From a virus: 42,123 nucleotides of DNA. The notes below the pieces were generated by a model. It was not told the origin of the DNA. It did no database searches and worked only from the letters and a program-made list of their open reading frames with translations. The position numbers and the translations under genes were made by a program. Positions 1 to 21,194 of the stretch are shown piece after piece; the first letter of the stretch is position 1, and every line of letters starts with the position of its first letter. The stretch is taken from the IMG/VR virus record IMGVR_UViG_3300022072_000026, positions 1 through 42,123 of that record. One strand, given 5' to 3'.

Positions 1-3000
1 GGGGTTAAATAATATAGAGTTATCATAATCAGAAACAGTTTCTTGATTATTCCCATCAACAGCAGTAATTCCTTTCTGTAACGGATCCAAATATCTTTGT
101 AGCTCTACAAATATAGATTTCGGATTTCCCGGAGTAAGTAAAGCAACAGCTTCATCCATATTAAAATTATTCAACCCCAACAATCTTGCAGTTTGAAAGA
201 CTTTAATACTATTTGAAATATCTTCTACTTGAGATGTCGTTAATCTATCAGCACCAATCTTATTCACTAAAGAATTAAGCACTTTATTAGTGGCACCTTG
301 ATATACTGGGTTCAACACTTTCAAGTGGCTTAAAACCTCTCTTGCTACATTCTCGTAGTTTTTCAAATCAGGGTTTGTTCTAAACTCAGGAGTAAACTTC
401 AAAGTTCTTTTTGCTATTTCTTTTTTGGTTTTTGGCGCAGCCATAACCTCATCATAACGATCTAGTTCTTTTTCTAAGACGTGTGGGTTTACATGAATCT
501 TCTTATGACCTCCCATTACTTTAGAAACCTTTTGAGTTTCTGAATTCATTTCTTCTAACATTCTAAACAATTCCAAAACATTACCAAATTGCGAACGATT
601 TAATATTTTGCTTTTTCCTGTTTTTTTATCAATGCTAGTATCAATACTTAATTTTGGTGTTTTAGCTTTCTTAATCTTAAGAGCTTTATAGGCTTGATCA
701 AAAACATTAGAGTAGTTTGACTCTTCATTATAAATGTTTTTCATTTTAGACTTTAGCTTTCCATATACCTTAGCTGGCTCCGAGTTAAGTATTAAAGCAA
801 CTTCCTCTAAACTTACCCCTAGGTTCACTAACAATGTAGCTTGTGCTATATTGAAGCTGTCAATACCTAGCTTATCAGCAAAGTGGTGACTTGCATTATC
901 CAATTGGATATTTGCTAATTCAGCAGATTTTTGATTCCTAGAGTTTTGACCTACCTCAGCATCTCTAAACCTATTGTAAACAGCACCATTTATACTAACT
1001 GGTCTAGTAAGTTCAATTTCATATGCTGCATATAAGTTCGCAACCTTATGAAGATTGAATATAGGCCCAACATTGTTTTTGGCAACTAGTGTATTATCAT
1101 AATCTGCGGCTCTCTGCTCAGGAGAACCGGGCAAATGATACTCTTGATTGTTTTTAAATGTCTGTTCGACTTTCTTAACAACTGCTTCAGTAGAAGCTTT
1201 AATATCCATTTTAGCCTGTATCTGTTCAGCCATAGCACTAGAAGTCCAGTACTTTGTCATTTTATCAAAAGCTTGATTCCATTCAGAGTATTTCTTATTA
1301 TCTCCTTTGTGCTGAATGTAAAGAGCATCACCATCGTTATCAGCTCCAATGATATCATTAAATTCAGAAGATACCATTACTTGATTACCATCACCGTCGT
1401 TGTACGCCATAACCTCAAACACACCTGTTGAAGATGGCCCATGACCAGGAATCCTAGAAGCGATTACAGTTTGCCCTTTTACGTGATATCCAATATGAAC
1501 ACCATTTTCATTGAATTCTTCACCAATAAACTTATTAGCTTCTTCATTAGTACTAACACCATGAACGCTTCTAGCTACTTTTAAAGCTGCATATTTAATA
1601 GCATTTAAGTCTTGAAGATGAGTCTGGGTTTCTCTTTTCTTTTTTGGATCACCTGCATTGTAATGATATAAAACACCTTTTCCAGCTTGATTATAAACAG
1701 TCATTTTCTGCCTAGCCATTAAAGGCTTTTGACCTGACTTAGAAACCATACTCATATGACGAGGCAATTCAATTCCAGCAGGATTAATTGAACCGTCGGT
1801 ATTCTTAGTGTAACCTTCTAATTTGTCTTTAATACGAACATCTGGCTTTTGGTGAGCGATAGTACCCGGAGTTAACAACTTGTTTCCCGCGACACGTAAA
1901 GTCTTAGCTAATTGGTTTGTTACAATCTCTGTGATATAAGGATGAGACAAAGAACCACCATCTTCAAAGATAATTCTCTGGGCTTGATCCATATCTTCTT
2001 TATTAAGACCTGATTCAATAAGAGCGTGATAATCTTCCATTTTACCACTAGCAATCTTTTCAAGTATTTCATTGAAAGCTTTTTGCTTCTGGTTAGATAT
2101 GTGGTCTTGTATTTCAATAGCTAAGTCCATATTACCATTAGCGGTAGCACCTACAATAACCGAGTTAATCATTTGGGTTGGTGTAGTAGATAAACTTTTT
2201 ACAACGTCCATTAATTGTTGAGGTCCGAAATTATAACTTTCTAAACCTACGAAATTTCCTTTTTTGTCATAGAACATTTTATCATAATACTCCATTACAC
2301 CCTCATGGTCTTGTGACAATGCTTCCATTGTAAACTTAGAACCTAAATCAGTATGTGTTAATTCACCAGTAGTCTTGTTTTCGTCAATAAATTTATCTGG
2401 ATATAGACTTCCTTTATCTGAGGATTGAGTAACAGCAATTGCAATATGATTAAACGACTGATCCGTTAAATCCATACTAGGCTCAACTCCATATTTATCT
2501 TTATGTTGCTTATCATACTTAGCTTCACGAGCTGTAAGTATATTGTAAAGAGGATGCCCCTTTCTAGCGATTGTTGTGTATCCTTTTAAGTAAGCTAGTT
2601 TCCCCGCAAATTGTGGGTTGTCTTTTTCAACAGAAGCATTTAATAGTTTGAAACCATCGTTCATATCAAATACACCAAGCCCAAGGTTTACTAATTTCTG
2701 TGCTGTCTTTTCAGTAATGTACATAGCACCATCGGTACCAGAAACACTATTGTTTGCAATACTATCAGCTATTGGTATTGCTTCTATTTTGAAGTTCTCA
2801 TTTTTTGCTGACATAATAGGAGAACCGTTAGACTTAAATCTTTTTATTCCTCCGGCCTTTCCTTTGACTCCTGGAATAAATATCTCTCTTGAATAATATC
2901 CATTAAGAACACTATTGACATATTGTTCAGCAGCTAGGTTTCTACCTTCAGAAGTAAGAACTCCGTCTTTATAGTAATCTGAAAATTGTTTCTTCTTAGA

Positions 3001-6000
3001 AAAAATATCTGCATTCTCTCTCATGAATTTAACATTGTTGTTAATTCCTTTAAGAAGATTCTTTTTAAACTCGGCTTTTGTTTGTTTCTCATCAGGAAAC
3101 AATTCATTGTGCATATGAAGTACACTGTTGATCAACTTTCCATCACTGTTAAATTGTAATTTTCTTGATGAAGGAGTTTTTAAAGTTTCTGATATAGTTC
3201 CTTTTGGATTACTACTAGAAAGAACATTATTAAAAGCATTGTTAAATTCTTTTTCAGTTATCTCCGAAGTATAAGATTGAACAACTGCCTTTGGGTGTGT
3301 TCCTACTGGATTCTTTTTAAAGAACTTCCCGTCTCTTTCGAAAAATTCATAATCAAGCATACCATCACCATCGTAAACTTCTTTTTTAAATGACTTGATT
3401 CCTTCTGGAGTTGTTAAAACATCAAACAAATCTTTAACATCATGTCGTTTCATATTCATATAGAACTTTCTAGGAGAGTCTGAAAAAGCACCCATACTCT
3501 GTAAGTATGAACTTGCTTTTCTTCCATTACCAGACCTCGAGGTAGCAACATACTGTAACATTTCATCAATACGCTGTTCGAATGAAGTACTGTTTTTATA
3601 AGTATTCCCTTTGTTGTTCTGTAAATCTTGAATACCATGAGTTATACTAATGGTTGGCAAGATTCCTAATTGAAACTGGTCGTATATGTGACCTAACAGC
3701 AAGTTAGGCTCATAAGCCTTGCCTAAGAGCTTTGCTTGTTTTTTAGATACATGAGAATACCTGTCAATGAATACCTCTCTAGTAGGCTTGTTTCCGTTGT
3801 TGTCTGCTGACATAAACTCAATCATGTTATCGACTTCCTTAGTCAAATGATTGTTTGTTATTTTAACAGCCTCCATATTGCCCTCGGCATTTACAACAGT
3901 GCTGAGGTTTGTAAACTTACGATTTGTAGAAATTAATGCTTCTGCAAGTAATCTACCTTCATATAGATTTACCTGCCCAACAATTCTCTTATTGGTTCCC
4001 CTAACCTTCTGATACAACAAGTTCTGTTTGATATATCCAGAAATCAAAGTTTCAATTGGTATCATAGTTCCTTTATGAATCAAGACACCTTGCTCCATAA
4101 CCTTAGAATACTTAAAGTTTCTAGGGCGATACATGTCGATAACATTAAGATAATCCTGTTCAGTGTCTTTACCTTCTTTAATGTTTTTAACAGACTGTAG
4201 AAATGAATTCCACTTATCAGAACCTACTTGTTTACCACTAGCATCTTTTACAGATCGCTCTTTGTAAACTCTTGCTAGCACATCTTGTGTATCAGTAATT
4301 TCTCTTTGGTTCAAGGAGTTTACCATCTCATAACTACCATCTGCCTTTAAAGCAGTACGAATACCATTGATATGCTTTCCATTAGAAAATATAAAATGTA
4401 TTCCAGAAAGCAACTGCTCATTAGAATCAGGATATACCTTTTTCATAAATCTATTGAAAGCAGCTATCTCCTTAATTTCTGAATTCTCAATATTGTAAAT
4501 AAACGCTGCTGCGCTTTTGTTTTCAATAGCAAGATTATACATTACAGACTCCAACAACTCTTGGTTAAGAATAGGAGAGTTTTTACGATTAGTTTTTTGA
4601 GTCCTAGTGGCTTTAAGATGTTTTAACCTGAAAGCCTTATTGTAAATCGTTCCGAATCTTTTTAAAATTCTAGTTGCTGATTTTTTATGAGAATCAAAGT
4701 CTTTGTTTTGAAATGAGATACCATCTTCTACATCATCATCGTAGTCATTGGTTTCTTCGTAAAACTCATCTTGAAAGATGTTTTTTAAAGACCGGCCATT
4801 AGTAGCCTTACGTTTAATTCTCTCTTGAATCTCATTTAAAGCCTCAACATACTGACTGTCATTTTCTCGAGCTCTCTGGTCTAATCCATAAGCATCAAAC
4901 TTAACTCCTTTGGTTACAGCTTTGAATGTATTAAATAAATAGTCCTTCATATTACCTACAGGAAGAGTCTTATCTTCTGCAAGTTCTTTAAGCATTCTAT
5001 CTACTCCTGTTTCAGCTTCAATTAATTCGCCTCTTTTCCGAAGCATTCCCCACCATTTCTTAGTATCACGTTTTCTTCTACCTTCATTCTTTAAGGTAAA
5101 GACCATATCAAAATTAGCAGCCAACGGCCCTTCTAAGGTCTTAGCTAACATTTCTTCAATTAAATACTTTTGCTCAGTAAGAGGTACGGTTTTTAAATCA
5201 CCAGAAGCAACCTCTTTAGCAATCTGATCATTAAGTTCATCAATTTGAGCTCCATTAAAACCTAGTGCGTTTGCAATCTGTCCTTTTGTAAGTTCTTGGT
5301 AGTTTCCTTTTTCATCTAAAACAAGACGATATAGGGTAACATCATCATAACGCTCTCTGATATCTTTAACAAGTTCTTTGTTTGCTAACGATGCTTTAAC
5401 AAGGGCTTGAGTCTCTGGCGTATTAATACTAAGTTTAAGATATATATGCGACATCTCGTGCATAAAAGTCTTATCCTGATTAGGAGCCTTTTCATCTATA
5501 AAAATAGTCGCGGCCAATGCATGACCTAAACCTTGTGAACCTACAGATTCAAACAAGTTTCTTACTATAATCAATTGCGCTGGGTCATTGGTGTTTGGAA
5601 ACATTGTCTTAAGAGAATGATTCACCACAGCCATTGAGTGCCTTCTTGATGGACTAAGTAAGTTATAGGTTGTGTACCTGTTGAGGTAATTATCTAATTC
5701 ATTCTGAGAAAGATCTGTTGCCTCAGTAACCTTAATACCTTTTATCTTATTAAGAACGCTTCGAACAAATCTTGTCTCAAGTATGTTTTGAAGCTTAACC
5801 TTTCCTTCAGCTCTTGATTCACGACTATCAAAAGCTACTGTTTCTGAATTGGCTACTTTCTTAGCATTCTTCTTCCAGTTCTTTTTAGCTTTATCAGCTT
5901 TAGCCTCTTCAACGCTTTCTAAATCTGGTTGTTTCTTTTTATTAGTAACCTCATCTTCTAAAAATGCTTGTTCCTCTTTACTTAAATCTTTATCGACTTC

Positions 6001-8754
6001 AACCTTCTCTTCGTCTTTATCGTCGGTATCTTCATCACCTTTTTTAGTTCCATCTTCATTAACACCTGGTTTAATTATCGGCCCCTCTGGAGGATCAATA
6101 ACTGCATCAGTAGAAGCATCCTTTTCAATCTTTAAAATTTTTCTAGTTATTTCACTTAAAACAGCATCCGGATTATTTGCACGAATTTCTTCTTCCCTAG
6201 TAGAAAGCTTTCCTTCGGACATAATCTTATCAGCGATATCACTTAAAATACCATCTGGCAAAGTTCCTGTCTCTTCAAAGTTTGACCAAACATCATCACC
6301 AATAACTTCATTCTCATCAACAGTAGTATCGTCTACCATTTGTTCAGCTTCTTGCTGGGCTTGTTCTTGGGTTTTAGGAGTTCCGTATGCTACACCATCT
6401 ATAATAGTAGTTCCGCTAGTTTTTTGTTCTTCTACTTTTTCTATCGGGCCTTCAGCTTCTTCTTGAGCTTTAGCTTGTGCTTCTTCTTCTGCTGCAACTT
6501 CACCCGCGGCTTCTTCATCTATTTCAGGAGTTTTAAACTTATCCTGAATAGACTTAGCCATAGCTTTTACTTTGTCTGTAGCATTTGCAAGAGATGGCAT
6601 TTCAAATATACCTTTAGCTTTCTTTTCAGCTTTCTCTGCCAAGTCTAATGCTTCAACGGTAATTCCCATTGCGGTAGCTTTTGCTTTCTTTCCTGCGTTT
6701 AAAGCACCATCTATAAACTTTTTACCTTTACTACGCGTATCTCCTTCACCAGTGTACTCCTTCATTTGTTGAGAAGACAATCCACCAATAACCATTTCAT
6801 TACCAAATTCATCAAGTACAATTTCAACCTCTAATGGATTTGCTTTTTTTCCTAGTATTAAATTTTCTTGGTTTTGACGTGCCTCAGCTTTTAATATAGA
6901 AAGAGCCTTTACTCTGGCAGTATATATTTGTTGAGTTTCAGAAATACTCTTTTTCTTATCCTTAATCTCTTGAGCACTCTTAGCATCTATTGCATTTATA
7001 ACCTCAAGCTTTTCTTCGGCAATAGCTTTATATTCTTCTAATTTTTTATTGAAATAGTTTTCATCAGCAATATTAGTAAGCAATGCTTTCTTACCTTTTA
7101 CATTTAAACGATCGGCTTTTTCAGACTTTTCTTTAAAGCCAAAATACATAGCATCTAAATCAGGTATTTGCTCTTCGTTTATATTTCCATTTTCTAAAAG
7201 TGAATTACGAAGGTCTACATATGCTTGGTCACCATATTTTTCATCAATAGCAATATTACCTACTTGATGCTCTATGTGATATTCTTGATAAGCAAGTTCA
7301 TCTTTAGTTCCTTGCTTATTTGTTATGTTAGTTAGGTTTTCAATAGAATTATGTAATCTTAAAGCATCATCAGCTTTTTGATTTACAAGTGTGTTTAAAT
7401 TAAAAGCACCACCACTCACAGCACCCATTACACCAGCTAATACTTTAGTTCCTTTATTCTCTTTAGAATTATAGAAATCCATGAATGAACTTACATCTAA
7501 CAGGTCTGGATGTGGAACACCAGTCTTATCAGCAACAGCTTTCTTAGAAGCCCACTCTTCAAATGTTTCTTGAAAGGATTCTTCAATTCCCTCAAAAGCC
7601 ATTTTCTTTGATAATCGACCTAAACCTTTTATTATTGGTGCAACATCATAAGTAAATAAACTAGAAGACATTTTTGCTCTAGCAGCAGCAGTTCTAGGTA
7701 TGCCACCTTTAGACATTGGATTAAGACTTTTTAATGCCTTATACCCACCTCCATAAGTTAAACCCCAAGAAGCCATATCAGCAGCAAGCCAAGCGGAATT
7801 ATTACGCATAGTTCCAGCTGCCATATCTCCAAGGTCTTCTTCGGAAAACATTTTTACCTTTTCACCCTGTTCATTTGTATAGGTTAGGTCTTTGTTGTTA
7901 TTAACGACTCCTGCCGCGTTTAACATACCTGCATAAACATTACTAGCAATACCCCCACCAATTGCACTAGCAGTTGCATTACCTAATGTAGTAAGCCCTA
8001 TATCAGTTCCTAGCTTACCCGCAAGACCTGAACCTTTTCCAGCAGCACCAAATATTTCAGCACCTAAAGCAGTCTTTCCAACTTGCCCTGGTAGTTTTGT
8101 AACACCTTTCTTTAAAAGTGATTTAGCAATAGCTGCACCTCTACCCCCAATATATACAGACTGTACAATCTGAGGTATCATACTAGCTATATTCTGACTC
8201 CAAAACTTAGGATTGGTAACCGAACCCCAACTTAAATTTTCATTCTTTAATTCTTCAGGTATGGCGCTTTTAAAGTTTTCAGCAACATCGGTACCAACAT
8301 CTTGAAGCATTCTAGATAATACCGTTCCATCAGATATAGTAGGATCAACAATAGCACCCGCCATTTGAACCAAATCACCAGTACCTTTGATAATATAATT
8401 ACCAACACCTTGCATTATATTAACTCCTGCTTCTTCCATCCAACCACGAGCACTATACTCTGGACTCCAAGAATCAGGATCCTCTTCTAAGTCTCTAGTG
8501 TTTTGCCCAGCAATAGTACCTAGCTTTTGATTTGAATATATTTCATTATTAACAGCTTCTTGGTCTTGAGCGTTAGCTTGAACGTTATCAGGTAAGGCTA
8601 AATTTTCTTGCTCTTGCCCTTGCCCTTGTTGTTCTTGCATTTGCTGTCCTCTTTCGGCAGGTGAAAAAGACAAGTCTTGTTCTCTTTCTTCTACTGGTGG
8701 AGCAGAACCATTTCCGTTTTTTGAATTATTAAAAATTTCAAAGATATCTGGCAT
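1..8754 (-). CDS. Giant virion RNA polymerase with zincin-like domain (partial, runs off the left edge)
   Basis: The frame is open from the ATG at 8754 to the window edge: 2918 codons with no stop, so the C-terminus is missing. The decisive motif is GADNDGD at residues 2470-2476 (DNDGD at 1327-1341), preceded by SRIPGHGPSSTGVFEV. This mirrors the multisubunit beta-prime pattern NRAPTLHR...FEP...NADFDGD, where the three Asp bind catalytic Mg. A second segment, GTDGAMYITEK from residue 2006, may belong to the beta-like barrel; that is inference. Known crAss-like phages (Cellulophaga phi14:2 gp66) package one-chain polymerases of this kind and eject them to transcribe early genes. Upstream of the polymerase part lie hydrophobic Gly/Ala-rich stretches (about residues 185-280 and 439-457), Lys/Glu-rich and acidic linkers (about 500-930) and HEMSH at 1099-1103, a zincin HExxH motif. 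The N-terminus is Gln-rich (about residues 35-50). It is the last gene seen in the cargo operon, 20 nt after the 692-aa gene. Polymerase identity is strong; protease activity is unproven. Confidence 0.88.
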   Translation of the reverse strand, partial: MPDIFEIFNNSKNGNGSAPPVEEREQDLSFSPAERGQQMQEQQGQGQEQENLALPDNVQANAQDQEAVNNEIYSNQKLGTIAGQNTRDLEEDPDSWSPEYSARGWMEEAGVNIMQGVGNYIIKGTGDLVQMAGAIVDPTISDGTVLSRMLQDVGTDVAENFKSAIPEELKNENLSWGSVTNPKFWSQNIASMIPQIVQSVYIGGRGAAIAKSLLKKGVTKLPGQVGKTALGAEIFGAAGKGSGLAGKLGTDIGLTTLGNATASAIGGGIASNVYAGMLNAAGVVNNNKDLTYTNEQGEKVKMFSEEDLGDMAAGTMRNNSAWLAADMASWGLTYGGGYKALKSLNPMSKGGIPRTAAARAKMSSSLFTYDVAPIIKGLGRLSKKMAFEGIEESFQETFEEWASKKAVADKTGVPHPDLLDVSSFMDFYNSKENKGTKVLAGVMGAVSGGAFNLNTLVNQKADDALRLHNSIENLTNITNKQGTKDELAYQEYHIEHQVGNIAIDEKYGDQAYVDLRNSLLENGNINEEQIPDLDAMYFGFKEKSEKADRLNVKGKKALLTNIADENYFNKKLEEYKAIAEEKLEVINAIDAKSAQEIKDKKKSISETQQIYTARVKALSILKAEARQNQENLILGKKANPLEVEIVLDEFGNEMVIGGLSSQQMKEYTGEGDTRSKGKKFIDGALNAGKKAKATAMGITVEALDLAEKAEKKAKGIFEMPSLANATDKVKAMAKSIQDKFKTPEIDEEAAGEVAAEEEAQAKAQEEAEGPIEKVEEQKTSGTTIIDGVAYGTPKTQEQAQQEAEQMVDDTTVDENEVIGDDVWSNFEETGTLPDGILSDIADKIMSEGKLSTREEEIRANNPDAVLSEITRKILKIEKDASTDAVIDPPEGPIIKPGVNEDGTKKGDEDTDDKDEEKVEVDKDLSKEEQAFLEDEVTNKKKQPDLESVEEAKADKAKKNWKKNAKKVANSETVAFDSRESRAEGKVKLQNILETRFVRSVLNKIKGIKVTEATDLSQNELDNYLNRYTTYNLLSPSRRHSMAVVNHSLKTMFPNTNDPAQLIIVRNLFESVGSQGLGHALAATIFIDEKAPNQDKTFMHEMSHIYLKLSINTPETQALVKASLANKELVKDIRERYDDVTLYRLVLDEKGNYQELTKGQIANALGFNGAQIDELNDQIAKEVASGDLKTVPLTEQKYLIEEMLAKTLEGPLAANFDMVFTLKNEGRRKRDTKKWWGMLRKRGELIEAETGVDRMLKELAEDKTLPVGNMKDYLFNTFKAVTKGVKFDAYGLDQRARENDSQYVEALNEIQERIKRKATNGRSLKNIFQDEFYEETNDYDDDVEDGISFQNKDFDSHKKSATRILKRFGTIYNKAFRLKHLKATRTQKTNRKNSPILNQELLESVMYNLAIENKSAAAFIYNIENSEIKEIAAFNRFMKKVYPDSNEQLLSGIHFIFSNGKHINGIRTALKADGSYEMVNSLNQREITDTQDVLARVYKERSVKDASGKQVGSDKWNSFLQSVKNIKEGKDTEQDYLNVIDMYRPRNFKYSKVMEQGVLIHKGTMIPIETLISGYIKQNLLYQKVRGTNKRIVGQVNLYEGRLLAEALISTNRKFTNLSTVVNAEGNMEAVKITNNHLTKEVDNMIEFMSADNNGNKPTREVFIDRYSHVSKKQAKLLGKAYEPNLLLGHIYDQFQLGILPTISITHGIQDLQNNKGNTYKNSTSFEQRIDEMLQYVATSRSGNGRKASSYLQSMGAFSDSPRKFYMNMKRHDVKDLFDVLTTPEGIKSFKKEVYDGDGMLDYEFFERDGKFFKKNPVGTHPKAVVQSYTSEITEKEFNNAFNNVLSSSNPKGTISETLKTPSSRKLQFNSDGKLINSVLHMHNELFPDEKQTKAEFKKNLLKGINNNVKFMRENADIFSKKKQFSDYYKDGVLTSEGRNLAAEQYVNSVLNGYYSREIFIPGVKGKAGGIKRFKSNGSPIMSAKNENFKIEAIPIADSIANNSVSGTDGAMYITEKTAQKLVNLGLGVFDMNDGFKLLNASVEKDNPQFAGKLAYLKGYTTIARKGHPLYNILTAREAKYDKQHKDKYGVEPSMDLTDQSFNHIAIAVTQSSDKGSLYPDKFIDENKTTGELTHTDLGSKFTMEALSQDHEGVMEYYDKMFYDKKGNFVGLESYNFGPQQLMDVVKSLSTTPTQMINSVIVGATANGNMDLAIEIQDHISNQKQKAFNEILEKIASGKMEDYHALIESGLNKEDMDQAQRIIFEDGGSLSHPYITEIVTNQLAKTLRVAGNKLLTPGTIAHQKPDVRIKDKLEGYTKNTDGSINPAGIELPRHMSMVSKSGQKPLMARQKMTVYNQAGKGVLYHYNAGDPKKKRETQTHLQDLNAIKYAALKVARSVHGVSTNEEANKFIGEEFNENGVHIGYHVKGQTVIASRIPGHGPSSTGVFEVMAYNDGDGNQVMVSSEFNDIIGADNDGDALYIQHKGDNKKYSEWNQAFDKMTKYWTSSAMAEQIQAKMDIKASTEAVVKKVEQTFKNNQEYHLPGSPEQRAADYDNTLVAKNNVGPIFNLHKVANLYAAYEIELTRPVSINGAVYNRFRDAEVGQNSRNQKSAELANIQLDNASHHFADKLGIDSFNIAQATLLVNLGVSLEEVALILNSEPAKVYGKLKSKMKNIYNEESNYSNVFDQAYKALKIKKAKTPKLSIDTSIDKKTGKSKILNRSQFGNVLELFRMLEEMNSETQKVSKVMGGHKKIHVNPHVLEKELDRYDEVMAAPKTKKEIAKRTLKFTPEFRTNPDLKNYENVAREVLSHLKVLNPVYQGATNKVLNSLVNKIGADRLTTSQVEDISNSIKVFQTARLLGLNNFNMDEAVALLTPGNPKSIFVELQRYLDPLQKGITAVDGNNQETVSDYDNSILFNP

Positions 8755-8774: not shown

Positions 8775-10853
8775 TTATTGGTTCAACATTTTTACTGTCT
8801 GAAACCACTTACTAGCAACTTCTTTATTTCTTTGGAAAGCTACACTATTTTTATCTAAATCTTCATTTACGTTTAGAAGCCAAGAACCAATAAGCTTTTC
8901 GTCTGTATATCCTTGATCATAAGACTTAAGATTTTCATCAATATTACCTCCACCTTCACCCATGAGTGTCGTGAACAACTCTGCATCTACTGCTTGTTGA
9001 GTAGTTGTCATATTCACAGCTGGATTACCATCTGGATAGTCTGCGTTTCTTTGATAGCTATTTCCAACATAATCAAAAGCCATATAAAACCCTTTCATTA
9101 AATCAGCTCGGTTATCCTCTCCGGCAGAACCTTGCCCCCAATATCTTTCTCCTTCTGTTTTAAAAACATCATCGTTAAAGATTTTTTCATCCAAAGTATT
9201 AATAGCTCCTTGAAATATGATTTGCTCTTCTTTAGAATTTTTAGCAATATTCTGAAGCATAGCAGCACTATCATTATCCTGTTTTACCGTTTCAGTCAAA
9301 TCATCATCATCAGCCAAAGTGTTAGACATTACTGTTTTTATTTGAGGTCTAGAAATATCAATCTCTTTATAGAATAAATCTCCATTTTCATTCTTCATTG
9401 CCATAACAGTTGTTAATTCAACTTCAGACTTGTAAAATTCGTCTAGCTTCGCTGTTGAACTTTTATCTAAATCCCCATTATCATCATATGCATTTACTAA
9501 CAGTGCTGGCTTACCATCACTTTTCATTGGTGACTTAACCGCTGTTGTAATTCCTAATATTTGATAATTACCTTTATGATCATCTGGGTCTAGTGCATTA
9601 TCTCCTGTTATCATAACTCCGTCCATTCTATACATTTCAGAATCAGGAGTAAAGTTTTGAAGTGTTCCATCTTGAATAGTAAATCCACCATTTTCAGGGA
9701 AAACAACAGAGGCAATATCAAAAGTATTATGTTCTAGGATTCTTTTAGATTCCTTTAAACCCATATTATCTCTAGTTAAATATATACCGAATTCTCTAGC
9801 TTTTGCAAGAGGCCCAGACTCAGGCATAAAATCAGTTATATCAACACCTTCTTCAGAAAGACTACGGTTTCTAGAGGTTTCAGTAAAGTCTTCTCCAAGT
9901 AGTTTTTTAATAGTAGGGTCATTTTCAGCAAGTGTATCTAATAGTTTTCCATTATAACCACCTTCCTCTTTAGATTTGTTGATGTCAGCAACTTTTAATC
10001 CTTTATTTATAATGCCACTTTTAAGAACATTCACTTCGTTTAAATAACTAGTTGTTGGGTCTTTTTTAGCAAGAGACGATTTTCTGTCATAGACAGCCTT
10101 TTGTCTATCTCTAATCATTTGCTCACGTATTCTAGTAGTATTGCTACCAGTACCGCCATAACCCATTTTCTTAGCAAATGCAACTATCTTTAAATAATCA
10201 TCTTGGTTTTTACTAGGATCTAATGGAGGTCTGTCTGGATAATTAATAGCGTAGTTGTTCATAATCTTCATCATGTTACTACCATTAGATAATATCTTTT
10301 CAATAGGAATATCAGTACCAAAGTCGAAGTTCTTAGAATCAGGTATTTCTACTTCAGACATAATACCATTATAACTAATCGGACCTCCTTCTTCATTAGC
10401 ATTGTAATCTTCCAAAGACTTTAAATCTGTTGGAGATATTAAATGACCAAGACCTTTTTCTTTAGCTTCTAATATCTTAGCTAAGTTCTTTTGATTTTCT
10501 CCAAACTGAACAGACTCATCAGATTGAAGGATATCATTTTTAATTTTATTAAGAGCAGAGAAACCACCTTGTTCCATAAACATTCTCTTAGAACCACCAG
10601 TTCTTGCTAAGTGTTCGGTTACTATTTGTTGAGAAGATGCTATTTTCTTATTTATTCTTTTTCTGTCTTTATCAAGAAAGGTTCCCGCTTTAGCATACAT
10701 CTGCTCAAACATAAGTTGCTCTTGCTGTTGCGCTACAACTTCCTTGTCTCTATCTTGCTGGACTTTAGAATCCATTCTTTCCAAGACGTTTAAATCTCGA
10801 ACCCTACTCTCGGTGCTATTGATGTTTTGCCTTAAACCTATTAATCCCTCCAT
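8775..10853 (-). CDS. Putative virion cargo/ejection protein, 692 aa
   Basis: I do not recognise a named family. The product is a 692-aa soluble protein with no signal peptide or clear membrane segment. The first 130 residues are strongly charged and helical (QQDRDKEVVAQQQEQ, KDRKRINKK), suggesting coiled coil; the remainder is mixed, with acidic stretches such as LADDDDLTE. It lies between the lysozyme-headed 881-aa protein and the giant polymerase, 19 nt from the former and 20 nt from the latter. In crAss-like phages this is the block of large cargo proteins packed in the capsid and tail and ejected with DNA, so a cargo role is inferred from position and size. The ATG at 10853 follows an A/T-rich leader without a Shine-Dalgarno sequence, as in neighbouring genes. 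Confidence 0.6.
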   Translation of the reverse strand: MEGLIGLRQNINSTESRVRDLNVLERMDSKVQQDRDKEVVAQQQEQLMFEQMYAKAGTFLDKDRKRINKKIASSQQIVTEHLARTGGSKRMFMEQGGFSALNKIKNDILQSDESVQFGENQKNLAKILEAKEKGLGHLISPTDLKSLEDYNANEEGGPISYNGIMSEVEIPDSKNFDFGTDIPIEKILSNGSNMMKIMNNYAINYPDRPPLDPSKNQDDYLKIVAFAKKMGYGGTGSNTTRIREQMIRDRQKAVYDRKSSLAKKDPTTSYLNEVNVLKSGIINKGLKVADINKSKEEGGYNGKLLDTLAENDPTIKKLLGEDFTETSRNRSLSEEGVDITDFMPESGPLAKAREFGIYLTRDNMGLKESKRILEHNTFDIASVVFPENGGFTIQDGTLQNFTPDSEMYRMDGVMITGDNALDPDDHKGNYQILGITTAVKSPMKSDGKPALLVNAYDDNGDLDKSSTAKLDEFYKSEVELTTVMAMKNENGDLFYKEIDISRPQIKTVMSNTLADDDDLTETVKQDNDSAAMLQNIAKNSKEEQIIFQGAINTLDEKIFNDDVFKTEGERYWGQGSAGEDNRADLMKGFYMAFDYVGNSYQRNADYPDGNPAVNMTTTQQAVDAELFTTLMGEGGGNIDENLKSYDQGYTDEKLIGSWLLNVNEDLDKNSVAFQRNKEVASKWFQTVKMLNQ

Positions 10854-10872: not shown

Positions 10873-13518
10873 TTAATTTTGATCTATTGGTGTTCCATCT
10901 GGCCATAGACCTGCCGAAGCCATTGTAGCAGATTCAGGAACTACTGTATATGGATTTACCCCTCCAGGAAACACACTAGGGTCAGTATTCTCATCCCTAT
11001 CTTCCATCAATCCTTTTTGTAAAGGAAAAGGTGGTGGTGGTCCTGAGTTGTTTTGTTTTATTATAGGTGGCAACCCTGAGTTATTAGGTGTATTTCTAGG
11101 GTCTCCACTAATTGAATTATTAAAGCCCGGTGTCATAAAACTAAGGTCATTACCAATTGCTGCTCTTTCTTTTTGAGCTTTAGCATTGTTTAATGTCTCT
11201 CTGTCCGTAGATAAAAGACCATAGTTACCTTCTTTAGAAGCTAAATCTATATTATCCATTGATACATTTTCAGGATTTATATCTGGATTCTGTTCTAAGT
11301 AATCAATGTATTCAAAAACTTTCGAAGGATCCTTTACTTGGTCAATAAATTTATTTGCCGCTGCTCTTTGATTAGGGTTGAGGTTTTGCATTTTACCACT
11401 ATAACCTTGCATTTTAGCTTCGAGTGCATCCGTTTTAGACTTCTTCATATCAAAAGCGCTTTTTGTTCCTGGTTTACCAGTACCATCATCTTTAGCTTTA
11501 GGGTCAAATCCAAACATTCTTTTCATAAGAAAACTTTCGTACATAGAATTTGCACTTCCCGGACCATTGTCGCGTTGGTACTTTAAACCTTCCATGAGTT
11601 TTTCCATTCCAGCAGTAGCTAAATCTCGTCCTCTTTTTTGATTGTCCTTAGCTTCTCCAAATTCAATAGCATGATTTGCTATATCCCTTCTAGTGTCAAA
11701 CTCATTGATATACTGCATTACGTTTCCGTATTTTTCAAATGCTTTTTCTTTAGCTGCATAGTCGGCTGCTTGAATTGCAACAAGACCTTTTGTTTGTTGA
11801 GCCTGTAATCCAGCAACATTTCCAAGTACTACAGCAGCGTTACCACCAGAAGCATTTGTGATAGCCATTAAGCCACCTTGCATCGCATCTGCTAATTCTG
11901 CTTTCATAGCTGCTTCAACCTCAACAGGAAGTCCATGGTGTGCTCTCTTAGACATTTCAGCAGCATATACCTTTATTGCTTCTGAAACTTCTTCAGTACG
12001 TAAAGGTATCTTAGCATCTTTGGCTTGTTGGTTTCCAATAAGCCCCATTCCTAATCCCATGATAGCATCAATAGGAAGTTCCTGTTTTCTATCATTGTAA
12101 TCAATACTGCCATCTTTAACCCCCAACAAACCTAATTGCTGATTGAAGTAATCGGTACCAGTATTATCAAAATCTTCTTTTGCTTTTTCTGCTACTTTTT
12201 CTTCTTCAGTTTTTTCTTCTTCTGCTACTTTTTCCTCTTCTTTAACTGGTGGTTTATAGATTTTTTCTCTTTCAATAGTAATTTCCTTCCTTTTGTTTTT
12301 AGGATATATTTTTTCTAAATTTTTAAATTGGATTTTTGTTTCAGAACCGGGTCCGACATTATGACCAAAAATAGTATCCATAAAATCAATATCAGTATCT
12401 ACATTAGATTTATCGTCATTAAGATTAAACGAAATTTCTTTGCCTGACATTTTTTTATACTCACTGGCAAATAGAGTTTGCATTTCATCAATATTAAAAG
12501 TAGGAGACATTCCTTTTTTCCCTTTTGTTAATTCAGGGTATCTCTCTAACATTTTATTATACTGCTCTATGTCTCCGGGCTGTAAGTTTGGAAAAACTGC
12601 CGTTTTACCTAAAGTGTATTTACCATCCTTTCCTTTGATTTTATTTACACGAAGTTTTTCAATAACACTTTGTAGTTCTTCAAACTCAGCAAATTCTTGA
12701 GAATTAAATTCATTTTCAGATTCAATAACTTCATTTAAAAAATCTTGATGACCTGCTTCAGTAGCATCTTTATATAATTGCTTTCTAAGAACTTCACCGG
12801 CGCCTTGCTCAATGTCACCATCTTTAATCATTTGAGTGATCTGCGCATCTCTTTGTCTAAGGTCTTTTTTAGTCACCTCTTTCTTAACCAAAAAACCCTT
12901 TTCTTCTTTTGTTAATTCAACAGATTTTTTATTGTTAACAGATTCTTCTATTTTTCCAGTAACATAGTCATTTGTTGTTATAGGCGTTCTACCTGCTTCC
13001 TTAAGACCTTCGTTGTATTTTCTAAGATATGTTCTTCCAGAAGCATTTGTTGAGGTTTCTTCTATTAGATTCCCTGAACTAATAGAACTTCTAGCAACGC
13101 TTGGAGGTTGAAAATGGAATTGACTAGCCATTTCACCCATAGTTAATCCGGCGGGGTTTTTATCTATCATTGATTTAGCTTGAGGTAAAAGAACTTCATT
13201 TGCATAATAACCAAAATAAGCCTCTTGTAAAGCTGGAGAGTTTTTAAAATCTTCCATAGATTCTACTTTTCCAAAAACACCTTTTTTTGAAGCAGCAAAT
13301 TCTTTAATACCCATCATAGATCCTGTCTTAGAAAACCATTCTTTTAAGAATTGATATTTTCCAGTAGCACTAGAATCTGGCTTGCCATCTTTATTTTTAT
13401 CACCAGCTAAAGTTGTATAAGGATTCGGATAACCACCGGTTTCTATTTTAGCAATTCCAACTCTTAAGTTTTCTATAATCGCTTTATCTCTTTCGGATAT
13501 TGGTTTTTTATCAGGCAT
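10873..13518 (-). CDS. Cargo/ejection protein with N-terminal lysozyme-like (transglycosylase) domain, 881 aa
   Basis: The N-terminal 150 residues look like a lysozyme/lytic transglycosylase fold. KIETGG places a candidate catalytic Glu at residue 26, and SATGKYQF at 50-57 matches the common G-x-YQF element of phage-encoded and soluble transglycosylases. A loop DKNKDGKPD (residues 40-48) between them has the D-x-N-x-D-G-x-x-D pattern of calcium loops. After the enzyme head come Lys/Glu-rich helical segments, an acidic repeat (EEEKVAEEEKTEEEK, about 425-445), an Ala/Gly-rich amphipathic part (about 530-610) and a Pro/Asn-rich tail with PPPPFP. By analogy with phage internal virion proteins, it probably opens the murein during genome entry. 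It sits between the 265-aa and 692-aa proteins in the cargo block. The domain call rests on motifs only; the cargo role is inferred from context. Confidence 0.7.
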   Translation of the reverse strand: MPDKKPISERDKAIIENLRVGIAKIETGGYPNPYTTLAGDKNKDGKPDSSATGKYQFLKEWFSKTGSMMGIKEFAASKKGVFGKVESMEDFKNSPALQEAYFGYYANEVLLPQAKSMIDKNPAGLTMGEMASQFHFQPPSVARSSISSGNLIEETSTNASGRTYLRKYNEGLKEAGRTPITTNDYVTGKIEESVNNKKSVELTKEEKGFLVKKEVTKKDLRQRDAQITQMIKDGDIEQGAGEVLRKQLYKDATEAGHQDFLNEVIESENEFNSQEFAEFEELQSVIEKLRVNKIKGKDGKYTLGKTAVFPNLQPGDIEQYNKMLERYPELTKGKKGMSPTFNIDEMQTLFASEYKKMSGKEISFNLNDDKSNVDTDIDFMDTIFGHNVGPGSETKIQFKNLEKIYPKNKRKEITIEREKIYKPPVKEEEKVAEEEKTEEEKVAEKAKEDFDNTGTDYFNQQLGLLGVKDGSIDYNDRKQELPIDAIMGLGMGLIGNQQAKDAKIPLRTEEVSEAIKVYAAEMSKRAHHGLPVEVEAAMKAELADAMQGGLMAITNASGGNAAVVLGNVAGLQAQQTKGLVAIQAADYAAKEKAFEKYGNVMQYINEFDTRRDIANHAIEFGEAKDNQKRGRDLATAGMEKLMEGLKYQRDNGPGSANSMYESFLMKRMFGFDPKAKDDGTGKPGTKSAFDMKKSKTDALEAKMQGYSGKMQNLNPNQRAAANKFIDQVKDPSKVFEYIDYLEQNPDINPENVSMDNIDLASKEGNYGLLSTDRETLNNAKAQKERAAIGNDLSFMTPGFNNSISGDPRNTPNNSGLPPIIKQNNSGPPPPFPLQKGLMEDRDENTDPSVFPGGVNPYTVVPESATMASAGLWPDGTPIDQN

Positions 13519-14344: not shown

Positions 14345-17300
14345 TTAAAGGTGGCTTACTCTTAAACTATTTAATACTGCTAAGATATCAACTTTATTCT
14401 GATTTAAGCTCTCAGCTGTTATTTCAACATACACCCATTTACCTCTAACACTACCTGATTGTTCTATATCATCGGTATCATTAATTGCCGGCACTGTATG
14501 TGTTCCTTCTCTGATTCTATAAGCATCATGAGTACCTAATATCATTCTGTCATATCCTAGATTAGATTTAAAGAATACAGATTTAATAGGATAATCTAAA
14601 TTGGTAACCATACCCCATTGTCTATAAAGAAATATTGTTTCGGTATTCGCGTGAATGTAAAAACCTAATGTAAGTTCTTTTTGTACTTCAAAGAAATTAA
14701 GGATATCACCAGCATTTAATTGATGTAATCTTGCGCTTTCTAAATCAACTCCCGAAGTACCTGTTGTGATTGGTGCATAAACTTTTTCTTTAAAGGTTAT
14801 GTACATATCATTATCATACTCAAAGTCACCATTAAACTTCTGACTTACTTCATTATAAGATAACATAAAATTAGTTCCATCTTTAGTTCTTAGACGAATA
14901 CCTGTTTCTTTATTTTCATGGTCGTAGTAAGCTTCAGTATCTATGACTGGATTTTTCTTTAACTGCTCTAGGTATAATAGATGAAGTAAGTTTTTAACTA
15001 ACAACGGATCTTTACCTCTTACAAACTCATTTTTAGTTTCATCAAAAAATGTAAACCCAAAATCTCCATTAGCAACAGCTCGACGTATAGCAGTACCATA
15101 TTTACTTATAATCTTATGACCGTCTATAATAGTTCCAGAACCTTGCTGTACATTTATAGAGCCTCCATCTTGGTCTGAAATAACTCTATCCATACCAACA
15201 TAAATAAGTGAAGTCTGCTTGCCTTGTATTGCGTATACGTTATCATCATATCTAAATATGTTTGAAACATCACCCTTATTCTTTTCTAATAAAGCATAGA
15301 AGTTGTTTACTTTAAAAACTGTCCAAGCATCATAAGGATCTCCAGCTAACTTAACATCGGAAACGGCAATAACGTTACCCCTGTTTGGGTCGTTCTTTAA
15401 ATCAAATGGTTTCGGAATATATGTTTTTATATTATTCTCATTAAAGTATGCATTGTTGATTATTTCGTTTCTAGTAGTATTGAAACTGTGTTTTGAATTA
15501 ACTCTATAAAATTCATATCCATAGGTTAACTTAGGCTCTACTTGTGATTCTAAAACAAAAAGATAAGTCCAAGCACCGTTACGTTGCCAAACCTCTATAT
15601 CTCCTGATTGTCTACCATTACCATGATTATTATAACCTCTTTCTTCAACTGGATCAGTACCCCAATCATTTTTAGTTCTAATACTTAAAGTAACATAAAC
15701 ATCAGCACCTACATCAAAAAACTGTGCATTATTAGAAGATTTTAAAACAGGTATTGTTTTACTAAGTGGTATGTATGTATTTGCAGTATAAGCCTGTTTT
15801 GTCCGACCACCAAATATAGATTCTCTGTTGTTTCTAAAAAGAGTTATTAATGGAAGGCTATCATAAACAACATGATTATCATCTCCTAGTCTTATTTGTG
15901 AATTTACAGTATGAATGTCTGGACCAACCACAACAGGACTAAATACATCTGTAACAGTTTTTATAATAACAGTTGGATAACCAGGGGAAGTAATTGCACC
16001 TCCAAATATTTCAGATTTTACACGACCATCTATATAATCCCATTTTCTTTGAAAATTACCATAGTACCAAGGCTGCGATTGCATCATAACAGCATTGTTA
16101 GAAACATCATTGGTTACTCCAAAAGCAAAGCCTGAGATGCTAACACCTCTTTCTAGACTTTCAGCACTATCAATAACATGTTCAATAGGCCCATTAATTA
16201 CTTGTACGTATTTTGAAAACACTGAAACATTAACAAAATGAGTTTCCCATGTTTCATTGTAATCTTCTTCTCGTGCAAATCTTGGTAAATCTCCTTGATA
16301 GTTTTCTCCATCAACTTCTTGTTCAAGTATTTTTCTAGAAAACTTAGGATAAACCTCATCGCCAAAGTTAAAACCACTACCTCCAGAAACATCACCGCCT
16401 CTTTCTCTAATAACTCCGGGTGTGTGATCAGTGTTTAAAACAGCATAGATTTGAAGTTTGCACTTCTCTACATACTGGTCAGATATCTTACCGTAGATTA
16501 TATCTGGTGAATCAAAATACATTAAAGACCTATTAACCATAGTTCTTTTTAAATACTCTATATCATCTGTGTATTGATAATCTTCACCATAAGTATCATA
16601 ATTTATAAGTCCTTGCTTTTCATATGTAGGGCCTCCATTGTAAGGAATATTCCATTTGTTTTGAATAGCGGTAGGCATTTCGTTTTGTGGCTTACCATTT
16701 GTTTGAACTCTAGATAATGGGGCTGAGATACCACGACACAAAATAGTTCTATTATCTTCAGTTCTTTCTACATAGACAATTTGATACATTGGTATTACTT
16801 CTTGCAACTCACAAGACAATCTAACCTCTATATGCATTTTAATTCCATGTCCATAAAGAGTATCACCTACTACGCTTTGATTAAGATACCTACTAGAAGA
16901 TATGATTATGTTACCTGAGTCTGTAATTTCTTTTTTTAATTCTCCCATATTCGGAATCATTAAATCTCCTAAAGGAATTACAAAGTATTTTGTAGAATCA
17001 GAATTATATATCTGAAGTCCTATTCTATAAAGTTCACCTTTCATACAAAACTTTACTCCTGTTGGCTCTATATAATCAACCAATGTTCCAGTACCGTCAT
17101 AAATGCCAGTGGCTTTTTTCATTAAAGGCTCTGTAAACTCTCTGTAAGTTACACGTAACCCATTTCCTTGGTCGAACCCAATACTTTTACCTCCATATAC
17201 CAAAGAATCTAAATCAACCGTTACAGGTAGGAATTGAATGTCATTATCAAATGTTTCTACATACTGATCGTTATTTGATTCAAACACATAACTACTCATG

Positions 17301-18997
17301 TCTGTTTGAATTAAATCATTAGTTGGTTTTAGTAGCAATTGTCCATTAATTTTCTCAACCGTTAGGTTTGGGAAATATGATGCGAAAAGTATATTATTAG
17401 CTTGTTGGTCAATTAACCAATCAGCTACTAAAACAGTAATGTTCGTATAATTAGCAAGTCCTAAGTCAGAAAATATAATTGTAACCTCATCCGAAGTTAC
17501 ACTGTTTTTGAAAGTTAAACCTAATGGCCCAAAGCAAGATATGTTTCTATATACTTTTTGTTTGATATAAACTAAAGGCTCTGTATTTGTAGGGTCTATG
17601 TATCTATACTTCCAAGGCTCTGGATTAAGAATACAGTCATGAGTAGCGCCAGTATCATCCCATCCATGAAGAGGGAATAAGTATTCAAGATTTGCAACAG
17701 ACGTTGGTATTGGTTGGTCACGTAGCCCAGCCGCGATTAATTTGTTTTTCTTAGAAGTGAAATCATTACAATACTTCCAAGTGTTTTTATAATTTATAAT
17801 ATCATTAAAAGTAATGTTATCGGCAAACTCAGCTTCATTACCAAAGTGATCAAATTCTACAACTGATTTTACCGGCTTACGTCCTAAATTACGAATCGCC
17901 GTAGGAGGTCCAAATGCCTCTAATTCTATAGCAACACATTCTACTTCCGCAGAATCTTCAGGATCTATAAGATTTACTTTTATTCGAACTTTTTTATCAG
18001 TAGCTTCTGAAAAGTCACCCCCTCTAAATTCAACAGGAGTATTTTCAACAAGTATTCTTTGTACTTCTGAAGTAGGTGAGAATTCACTTAACTGTCCGTT
18101 TTCTGAAATAATACGATAACTATAAACAACAGTCATTGATTTTATTTGTCCTCCTTCTTCTATGTTTAATACTTCTGGTTGAAGTAATACATTGTTTAAT
18201 ACCTGGTTAAATTCATCTGACGTTCTTGATGGCAAATTAACATCATGAAGATTTACAACTCTTCTTACATTAAAAGCATCAGTATAATAAACTGGCTTTC
18301 TGAATTTGTTTTCCTCAACTCCTTCAGTAGTTATTTTTGCTTCTACAGGCCAATTCTGAGCTCCTATCCACCTTAATTCTCCAACAAGGTTGTAATTGTC
18401 ATTTAATCTCATGCTGTAAATAGCATCCCAATAAATTTCATTGTTTACTGGAACCTCAGCAATATTAATAGAACATGCAATTGGATTTTGAACATTAGCG
18501 TTTACTCCGTAATATTCTGAAAAATCAATTTGATCATCAGTACCTCCATCACAAACAAGATTATCTTCGAATTCTGTTTCAGATGGTGGATTTATTATTT
18601 TATTATAAGTACTTGTTGCTTCAATTGAATTAACAGAAAACTCATCTACTATATCTATTTCCGTAGCTCCAACAGAATCTACGGTTATAGTAAATAAGTC
18701 ACTATTTATTGTTGAGATATCTTCTGTTATTACAACAGGCTCTTTTGACCCACCTTTTAAAACTTTTGCAAAAACAACTATTTCATCTTCGAAAACATGA
18801 ACTCCTAGATATTTAACTATCTCTGTATTTTGATAAATAAGTTTTGATCCAACACCTCCGGAGAAAGAGAAAACTCCATCTTTAGAATAGAGTCTACCGT
18901 TAGTTGCTTTTTGGTAAGTGTTTTTAGCCTCAGCCGCATTAGTTAAATCTGAAGAGTAACCACCTTCTAATGTTTTGACTAGGTTAAAATTTACCAT
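14345..18997 (-). CDS. Tail muzzle/stabilisation protein (crAss-like), 1550 aa
   Basis: This 1550-aa, beta-rich protein has no signal peptide or membrane segment. Its start, MVNFNLVKTLEGGYSSDLTN followed by a NGRLYS...FSGG stretch, is typical of large Bacteroidota-phage proteins that plug or extend the podovirus tail tube. The composition (many Asn, Asp, Tyr, Thr; short strand-turn units) suggests propeller or sandwich domains. Homologues in crAss-like phages are called stabilisation or muzzle proteins and form the distal tail through which DNA and cargo exit; it is far longer than P22 gp10 (about 470 aa). Near residue 1300, IISKYGTAIRRAV looks like a conserved core. It is the first gene after the lysis cassette and directly precedes the cargo genes. 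The muzzle role is inferred from size, start, composition and position. Confidence 0.72.
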   Translation of the reverse strand: MVNFNLVKTLEGGYSSDLTNAAEAKNTYQKATNGRLYSKDGVFSFSGGVGSKLIYQNTEIVKYLGVHVFEDEIVVFAKVLKGGSKEPVVITEDISTINSDLFTITVDSVGATEIDIVDEFSVNSIEATSTYNKIINPPSETEFEDNLVCDGGTDDQIDFSEYYGVNANVQNPIACSINIAEVPVNNEIYWDAIYSMRLNDNYNLVGELRWIGAQNWPVEAKITTEGVEENKFRKPVYYTDAFNVRRVVNLHDVNLPSRTSDEFNQVLNNVLLQPEVLNIEEGGQIKSMTVVYSYRIISENGQLSEFSPTSEVQRILVENTPVEFRGGDFSEATDKKVRIKVNLIDPEDSAEVECVAIELEAFGPPTAIRNLGRKPVKSVVEFDHFGNEAEFADNITFNDIINYKNTWKYCNDFTSKKNKLIAAGLRDQPIPTSVANLEYLFPLHGWDDTGATHDCILNPEPWKYRYIDPTNTEPLVYIKQKVYRNISCFGPLGLTFKNSVTSDEVTIIFSDLGLANYTNITVLVADWLIDQQANNILFASYFPNLTVEKINGQLLLKPTNDLIQTDMSSYVFESNNDQYVETFDNDIQFLPVTVDLDSLVYGGKSIGFDQGNGLRVTYREFTEPLMKKATGIYDGTGTLVDYIEPTGVKFCMKGELYRIGLQIYNSDSTKYFVIPLGDLMIPNMGELKKEITDSGNIIISSSRYLNQSVVGDTLYGHGIKMHIEVRLSCELQEVIPMYQIVYVERTEDNRTILCRGISAPLSRVQTNGKPQNEMPTAIQNKWNIPYNGGPTYEKQGLINYDTYGEDYQYTDDIEYLKRTMVNRSLMYFDSPDIIYGKISDQYVEKCKLQIYAVLNTDHTPGVIRERGGDVSGGSGFNFGDEVYPKFSRKILEQEVDGENYQGDLPRFAREEDYNETWETHFVNVSVFSKYVQVINGPIEHVIDSAESLERGVSISGFAFGVTNDVSNNAVMMQSQPWYYGNFQRKWDYIDGRVKSEIFGGAITSPGYPTVIIKTVTDVFSPVVVGPDIHTVNSQIRLGDDNHVVYDSLPLITLFRNNRESIFGGRTKQAYTANTYIPLSKTIPVLKSSNNAQFFDVGADVYVTLSIRTKNDWGTDPVEERGYNNHGNGRQSGDIEVWQRNGAWTYLFVLESQVEPKLTYGYEFYRVNSKHSFNTTRNEIINNAYFNENNIKTYIPKPFDLKNDPNRGNVIAVSDVKLAGDPYDAWTVFKVNNFYALLEKNKGDVSNIFRYDDNVYAIQGKQTSLIYVGMDRVISDQDGGSINVQQGSGTIIDGHKIISKYGTAIRRAVANGDFGFTFFDETKNEFVRGKDPLLVKNLLHLLYLEQLKKNPVIDTEAYYDHENKETGIRLRTKDGTNFMLSYNEVSQKFNGDFEYDNDMYITFKEKVYAPITTGTSGVDLESARLHQLNAGDILNFFEVQKELTLGFYIHANTETIFLYRQWGMVTNLDYPIKSVFFKSNLGYDRMILGTHDAYRIREGTHTVPAINDTDDIEQSGSVRGKWVYVEITAESLNQNKVDILAVLNSLRVSHL

Positions 18998-20295: not shown

Positions 20296-20745
20296 TTATG
20301 GATTGAATAAATAAACTTTTGAGTTTTTTTCCTCGTCGATGTCGTCTAAATGTACCCAAGAAACACCGTCCTCTAATCTAATTTTGAATGGGAATAATTC
20401 TGAATTACTTACAATCCAATCCCTGACCTCCTTTGCCGTCATTTCTTTTACATCAAAATCGAACGCCCTTCCAAGTATATGCGCTGATATATATAACTGG
20501 TTTCTTTCCGCTTTATCTCTTACAAGTGGTTGGATATTTGTCCTAAGACCTCTCTGCTCTCTACTTCCGCTATTTACTGTAATAGGCTTATCTATATTAA
20601 CTCTTACAATAAGCAATGCGTGTAGTGCATTCGTTCCAAAGAACCTCCACGCTTTATCACCGTACTTCTTAAAAGTTCTACTACCTACAAGTTCGTGTAT
20701 TCCAAAATACTTTTTAATTTCAGTTAAAATTTCTGTTCTTGTCAT
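20296..20745 (-). CDS. M15-family zinc peptidase, probable endolysin, 149 aa
   Basis: The zinc site of D-Ala-D-Ala carboxypeptidase/L-Ala-D-Glu endopeptidase M15 enzymes is visible. SAHILGRAFDFD (residues 87-98) supplies His89 and Asp96 in the SxHxxGxAxD motif, and WVHLD supplies His132, with acidic residues just before it (Glu125, Asp126). At 149 aa it is a single catalytic domain with no signal peptide or wall-binding domain, usual for Bacteroidota-phage endolysins that rely on a holin. The ATG at 20745 overlaps the TGA of the cupin gene (ATGA), so the two are translationally coupled. It should cleave peptide bonds in murein stem peptides at lysis. An N-terminal segment (1-35) precedes the usual fold start. 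Confidence 0.85.
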   Translation of the reverse strand: MTRTEILTEIKKYFGIHELVGSRTFKKYGDKAWRFFGTNALHALLIVRVNIDKPITVNSGSREQRGLRTNIQPLVRDKAERNQLYISAHILGRAFDFDVKEMTAKEVRDWIVSNSELFPFKIRLEDGVSWVHLDDIDEEKNSKVYLFNP

Positions 20746-21194
20746 TGTTTTTTATTTAAAAATTCAGCTTCCCAACCATTCATTTTAGGTTTCCACATTA
20801 CTATAAATTCTACCCTCTTACCACTTTTATTTACAATAGCGTGTTTTTCTCCTTTTTTAAAGTGGCAACTATTTGGAAACTCAATAAGACATTCTTTTTC
20901 TTCTGTTATAACCTCCCAAATAGCCCCTTTAGTTATCGGTATAAACTGTTCGCAACTATCTAAATGAAAGTGGGGAGGAAACACACTATCTATACCAAAC
21001 TCATAAACACAAGCTGTTACGTTATCATTTCCTGTAATATCTAGTTCATACCAATAATCGTCTTTTGTACCCGGAAACTTGGTTCTTTTTTTCGGTATTA
21101 CAGGAATGCTAACTTGGGGGATCTCCCGAAACCCTGCCATCATATTGAGCCGAAACCCTGCCCTTTTTTTTGATAATTCCTTTTTGTGTTTCAT
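20742..21194 (-). CDS. Cupin-domain protein in lysis cassette, 150 aa
   Basis: The core carries both cupin motifs: PHFHLDSCEQ gives His75, His77 and Glu82, and KKGEKHAIVN gives Gly115, His118 and Asn122 (GxxHxxxN). All four usual metal ligands are therefore present, so an active metal site is likely. The substrate is unknown; cupins act as sugar isomerases, dioxygenases or binding proteins. The gene overlaps its upstream neighbour and the downstream endolysin by ATGA, which fixes both ends and suggests co-expression. The N-terminus (1-24) is basic and contains AGFR twice, from an in-frame 13-nt repeat next to an A8 run, so a later start at Met18/19 is possible. A link to surface sugar or murein modification is speculation. 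Confidence 0.72.
   Translation of the reverse strand: MKHKKELSKKRAGFRLNMMAGFREIPQVSIPVIPKKRTKFPGTKDDYWYELDITGNDNVTACVYEFGIDSVFPPHFHLDSCEQFIPITKGAIWEVITEEKECLIEFPNSCHFKKGEKHAIVNKSGKRVEFIVMWKPKMNGWEAEFLNKKQ

Follow-up and report, generated by a model that had tools for sequence, protein, structure and literature searches.

A predicted one-chain virion RNA polymerase of about 3,900 residues in a deep-branching crAss-like phage

The window, i.e. the whole stretch of 42,123 nucleotides that we have analysed, carries at its left end a giant gene whose product, on sequence grounds, very probably serves a deep-branching crAss-like phage as its virion RNA polymerase. It would be a single chain of about 3,900 residues, predicted to comprise a gp67/gp47-like N-terminal module, a region with an HExxH...E motif, a gp66-like two-barrel polymerase and a gp65/gp49-like C-terminal module (numbered as in phages phi14:2 and crAss001). 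Giant one-chain polymerases of the crAss type are already known, some of them larger than the window protein; what is new here is a deep, undescribed clade, the occurrence of all three modules in one gene, the form D[NFY]DGD of the active-site motif instead of DFD[IV]DK, and a conserved, protease-like HExxH...E motif. The giant gene and its parts are located in the window as follows:

1-8754, minus strand: giant gene, with the N-terminal module, the HExxH region, a predicted two-barrel RNA polymerase and the first part of the C-terminal module; its 3' end lies beyond the contig, and the expected total is about 3,900 aa
7405-8457, minus strand: N-terminal module, residues ~100-450, resembling the N-terminal end of phi14:2 gp67 and crAss001 gp47
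5446-5460, minus strand: HEMSH, residues 1099-1103, a zincin-type HExxH motif; H, E and H are invariant in 11 members
5152-5154, minus strand: E1201, candidate third metal ligand by position, ~100 residues past the HExxH; invariant in 11 members
721-2943, minus strand: polymerase core, residues ~1938-2678, from local alignment with 13 crAss-like RNA polymerases
2350-2793, minus strand: probable first double-psi barrel (DPBB-B), residues ~1988-2135, from AlphaFold strands and the gp66 alignment, the barrel topology not being superposed
2413-2415, minus strand: K2114, invariant in 11 members and opposite the Lys of gp66 DGVKVG in the alignment
1309-1503, minus strand: part of the putative second barrel (DPBB-A) with RxP...FE and DNDGD, residues 2418-2482, from alignment and model
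1327-1341, minus strand: DNDGD, predicted catalytic metal-binding motif, residues 2472-2476; D-x-D-G-D is invariant in 11 members
1024-1122, minus strand: bridge-helix candidate by position, residues 2545-2577, predicted as a helix of 33 residues past the barrel

The open reading frame starts with ATG at position 8754, runs on the minus strand to position 1 through 2,918 codons without a stop, the number that a sequence-only reading of this DNA had given, and leaves the contig at its left end. The leftward extension that the same reading had proposed has succeeded in part: a near-identical 76.4-kb IMG/VR contig, which includes the window with 8 mismatches and is that of the window's own phage or strain, lengthens the frame to 3,146 residues, but the stop is still absent there. 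Nine relatives are complete, each with its stop codon, at 3,901 (L002), 3,945 (L015), 3,775 (L017), 3,954, 3,822, 3,969, 4,012, 3,965 and 3,865 aa; because these lengths lie between 3,775 and 4,012 aa, the window protein is probably about 3,900 aa long in full. The frame is not a product of chance, since the near-identical contig extends it and homologs that are 28-51% identical to the window protein in the core are complete with a stop.

The members of the family have been gathered by using the core, the second barrel and the C-terminus as search queries; 11 of them, the window counted, are usable in the core, while a twelfth locus (L040) holds the C-terminus only. Invariant in the 11 members are H1099, E1100, H1103, E1201, K2114, R2434, P2436, D2472, D2474, G2475 and D2476. 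Searches of Pfam, PHROG and PDB sequences with the window protein have returned nothing significant, tblastn against INPHARED has given no match, and a search of genome contigs for relatives has found none; in two contigs whose long frames have been examined throughout, none of the other frames of at least 300 aa looks like a second polymerase part.

The homology of the core becomes visible only with a multi-sequence crAss profile or with more family members: the single phi14:2 sequence compared with four family members gives no detectable homology, whereas hhalign of the family core with the profile of 13 crAss-like polymerases gives 97.9% (E 5e-13) with four family sequences and 98.6% (E 1.4e-15, over 650 columns) with 11, the reversed control giving 0.1% and the reversed and shuffled controls together ranging over 0.1-0.2%. 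In the profile alignment, RIPGHG stands opposite RIPNQG, DNDGD opposite DFDID, K2114 opposite the Lys of DGVKVG and, past the second barrel, LDNA opposite VDNA; the alignment continues beyond that barrel. The core carries RIPGHG...GADNDGDAL, in which the fourth position of the motif is G, not I/V; DNDGD occupies precisely the residues at which it had been reported from the letters alone. Upstream of it, in RIPGHGPSSTGVFEV, R2434/P2436 and F2446/E2447 form the RxP...FE pattern that had been described as beta-prime-like. Across the family the motif varies as D[NFY]DGD; 14 sampled crAss-like proteins have DFD[IV]D, or DYDID in the case of Fpv3, with K nearly always next. DNDGD and Lys2114 are the predicted active-site residues.

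The structure of residues 1600-2790 has been modelled with AlphaFold from 11 sequences, at medium confidence (mean pLDDT 68.6, pTM 0.61). The only PDB match of the model under E 0.001 is 6vr4_A, i.e. phi14:2 gp66 (E 5.5e-14, TM-score 0.45 by query); the next PDB matches are the yeast and poxviral largest subunits, and in the BFVD library of predicted viral structures the named matches below 1e-3 are largely crAss-like phage proteins. The model has strands at about 1988-2135 and 2420-2482, with DNDGD in a loop of a beta-rich domain, flanked by a short helix and a strand. The barrels had been placed at about 1990-2100 and 2430-2500, which comes close to the model: the predicted strands, together with Lys2114, span about 1988-2135, and the beta-rich DNDGD domain would end near 2482. 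Profile and fold matches together support the earlier claim that this is an RNA polymerase with two barrels in one chain, related to phi14:2 gp66. The points that weigh against this explanation are the medium confidence of the model, the TM-score of 0.45 to 6VR4, DGD in the place of the D[IV]DK of the sampled Crassvirales, the lack of significant Pfam, PHROG and PDB sequence matches, and a 3' end that lies outside the available sequence.

The regions on both sides of the polymerase also have counterparts in crAss-like phages. At least 1000 residues had been expected ahead of the polymerase, and the local alignment to gp66 indeed begins near residue 1938. The homology of the N-terminal module, undetectable with four family members, is apparent with 10: hhalign gives 87.3% (E 3.8e-6) for phi14:2 gp67 and 77.2% (E 2e-5) for crAss001 gp47, with reversed and unrelated controls at or below 0.5%. 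The C-terminal ~290 residues of the complete relatives match the gp65/gp49 group at 97.2% (E 3.5e-11; control 0.5%). Since its three parts match consecutively encoded phi14:2 proteins, the one chain corresponds to gp67, gp66 and gp65 in gene order. The layout of these modules varies among crAss-like phages: there are three genes in phi14:2 and crAss001, the N-terminal part and the polymerase are joined in Suoliviridae with a second gene downstream, and in jaberico the N-terminal part is encoded apart from the polymerase chain. The two flanking modules, N- and C-terminal, probably act in packaging, ejection or attachment to the cell envelope.

The remainder of the window places the giant gene in a crassvirus-type genome, through the following features:

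8775-10853, minus strand: 692-aa protein at the position of cargo protein 2 (crAss001 gp46), by gene order, no family matching it
10873-13518, minus strand: 881-aa protein at the position of cargo protein 1 (crAss001 gp45), by gene order
14345-18997, minus strand: muzzle protein, 1,550 aa (PF25731 crAss_MUZ, E 1.7e-52, above cut-off)
30199-31251, minus strand: tail ring protein 1 (PF24228, E 3.2e-8, above cut-off)
31741-32475, minus strand: tail ring protein 2 (PF25702, E 3.5e-6, just above cut-off)
34077-35753, minus strand: major capsid protein (PF23898 Crass_capsid, E 3.1e-11, above cut-off)
36960-39206, minus strand: portal protein (phrog_6547; the tblastn matches are crAss-like phage records)
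39228-41405, minus strand: terminase large subunit (phrog_6681; best matches Crassvirales, 22-29% identity)

The order TerL, portal, major capsid protein, rings, muzzle, the two cargo-position proteins and the polymerase resembles that of phi14:2 and crAss001. Among the matches listed, TerL and portal tblastn searches give crAss-like phages or uncultured and Flavobacterium relatives, mostly at 19-29% identity. In a TerL tree that is unrooted, without an outgroup and with long branches, nine members of the clade group together (100/100) on a long stem. The IHF/HU model PF00216 matches above cut-off in five related genomes; because it misses the annotated IHF of phi14:2, these matches do not discriminate for or against Crassvirales. 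The source phage belongs to a deep, undescribed lineage in or next to Crassvirales.

Three further observations concern this genome. The N-terminus of the 881-aa protein (ETGGYPN...SATGKYQF) suggests, on inspection by eye, a phage lysozyme or a lytic transglycosylase, without a Pfam match. Two genes overlap at 20296-20745 and 20742-21194, one for a peptidase M15-like endolysin (phrog_894, E 1.1e-16) and a small one that is cupin-like (Cupin_2, E 2e-4, below cut-off). The clade includes four contigs (L041, L042, L043 and L002) of 82.3-82.8 kb, which suggests a genome of ~82.5 kb, as against ~90-104 kb in most of the crAss-like genomes compared.

In phi14:2, early genes are transcribed by gp66, a protein of the virion, and the virions of crAss001 hold gp45, gp46, gp47, gp49 and gp50 (PMC7886860, PMC10172136, PMC10136315). 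By homology, the giant chain would be packaged in the head with the two cargo proteins that are encoded just upstream, would leave in partly unfolded form through the ring-and-muzzle tail, before the DNA or together with it, and would refold inside the host; Mg2+ held by the aspartates of DNDGD would then allow early genes to be transcribed independently of the host polymerase, as in phi14:2.

The HExxH region may, to judge by its motif, have a protease role. The AlphaFold model of this region is of low confidence (mean pLDDT 58), has no structural match and does not confirm a zincin fold, and homology with the HExxH regions of crAss-like phages is not demonstrable by profile comparison (5.4%).

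The position of the HExxH motif itself differs among several crAss-like phages, as if the domain had moved: it lies upstream of the polymerase in crAss001 gp47 (residue 2157, upstream by module order) and in the Suoliviridae giants, and downstream of it in Fpv3 gp32 (residue 4065) and phi14:2 gp65 (residue 245).

Of the rival explanations, the one that survives best is that the giant chain is a polyprotein: an active protease, the HExxH region, would cut it into gp67-, gp66- and gp65-like pieces once packaging or ejection has taken place, and the working enzyme would then not be one chain. The modules do stand in the same order as the separate phi14:2 genes, the HExxH and E1201 do not vary among the 11 members, the motif precedes the polymerase in crAss001 gp47 and in the Suoliviridae giants, and jaberico has, upstream of its polymerase, a protein annotated ZnMc_tr; nevertheless, with a low-confidence model that lacks a structural match, a profile comparison at 5.4%, no known cleavage site, and phi14:2 gp67 and gp66 that carry no HExxH, we regard this explanation as unlikely. 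A broader version appears similarly unlikely: that the whole virion transcription apparatus (gp67-, gp66- and gp65-like) is a single polyprotein of a new family-level crAss-like lineage, matured by an embedded zincin, and that its cellular-type DxDGD active site links the crAss polymerases to other two-barrel enzymes.

It is very improbable that the protein is a virion structural or ejection protein that retains the polymerase fold and has lost RNA synthesis: the sequence is very divergent and the larger share of the chain is not polymerase, but all the residues of the catalytic motif and Lys2114 are invariant across members that are 25-77% identical, and a relic would not have retained them. 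Fusion of the polymerase to a tape measure protein, as in P23-45 gp96, which is likewise a giant virion-type chain with a DxDGD-type motif (DFDGD, PMC10770324), deserves still less credence, given tail genes of the crassvirus ring-and-muzzle type, a C-terminal module that matches gp65/gp49, a polymerase that is central here and N-terminal in gp96, and gp66 as the best fold match. A chance long frame is contradicted by protein-level conservation in 11 contigs, and a single-subunit T7/N4-type polymerase, for which the existence of giant N4-type virion polymerases in podoviruses (PMC12633501) is the sole support, by the match to two-barrel rather than T7-type folds, so that we practically dismiss both.

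We return, then, to a probable one-chain virion polymerase of the crAss type, the size of which had been overrated. It is indeed longer than phi14:2 gp66 (2,180 aa), which is not itself the longest known, but the suggestion that it may be among the largest phage polymerase fusions does not hold: crAss-like database genes reach 4,946 aa in cr118_1, with 4,774 in cr50_1, 4,551 in cr55_1, 4,287 in Fpv3 and 4,098 in jaberico, and on these lengths we have rejected the description "largest polymerase fusion". P23-45 gp96 has 5,002 residues (PMC10770324), and a review mentions genes of up to ~6,000 aa (PMC10136315), because of which we do not call the three-part fusion unprecedented. What the clade contributes is a deep branch with nine complete genes, in which the D-x-D-G-D form of the active site is kept, and a module-by-module correspondence between three separate proteins of the phi14:2 transcription block and one chain; the family alignment can now serve structural studies of this branch, and the question whether the chain remains whole after ejection is one that can be tested.

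Among the closest known systems is that of the Cellulophaga phage phi14:2 (Crassvirales), whose gp66 (PDB 6VR4) is a two-barrel, one-chain polymerase, as is predicted for the window protein, and shares with it the RIP..G..S signature, DxDxD, the aligned barrel Lys and a conserved DNA[KS] segment past the second barrel, while gp67, gp66 and gp65 share the module order in a similar gene neighbourhood; the differences are that phi14:2 has three proteins of 1,797, 2,180 and 1,421 aa, the motif DFDIDK, and ~13-14% identity in the aligned core. The modules of the Bacteroides phage crAss001 (gp47, gp50 and gp49) are homologous, but are divided among three genes, one of them on the opposite strand, with the motif GSDFDVDK; the crAss001 products have been detected in virions (PMC10172136).

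The Suoliviridae giants (cr50_1, 4,774 aa; cr118_1, 4,946 aa; cr55_1, 4,551 aa) also combine the N-terminal part, the HExxH and the polymerase in one chain and in the same order, but they are longer, have GSDFDIDK or similar, and encode the C-terminal module in a separate downstream gene; the likeness of their HExxH to that of the window protein is one of motif and order, homology of the regions not being demonstrated. The giant genes of cr50_1, cr118_1, cr60_1 and cr113_1 (L022 5617-19941; L024/L033; L025; L030) are annotated as DNA helicase, exonuclease V, nuclear pore complex protein-like and DprA-like; all of them carry GSDFDIDK and are, by alignment, virion polymerases.

In Rudgehvirus jaberico (Intestiviridae; proteins of 2,018 and 4,098 aa), the polymerase chain is likewise long enough for a gp65-like C-terminal part, as which it has entered a profile, but the N-terminal, ZnMc_tr-annotated part is a separate gene. 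Flavobacterium phage Fpv3 has a giant gene (gp32, 4,287 aa, with GLDYDIDK) that is immediately preceded by two genes in cargo position and one for a large tail protein; it differs in that a separate 1,596-aa gene follows and in that the HExxH comes after the polymerase motif. Lastly, gp96 of P23-45 is also a giant one-chain virion polymerase, whose DFDGD motif (PMC10770324) has the same D-x-D-G-D form, but it belongs to a phage with a siphovirus-type long tail and combines an N-terminal polymerase with a tape measure protein.
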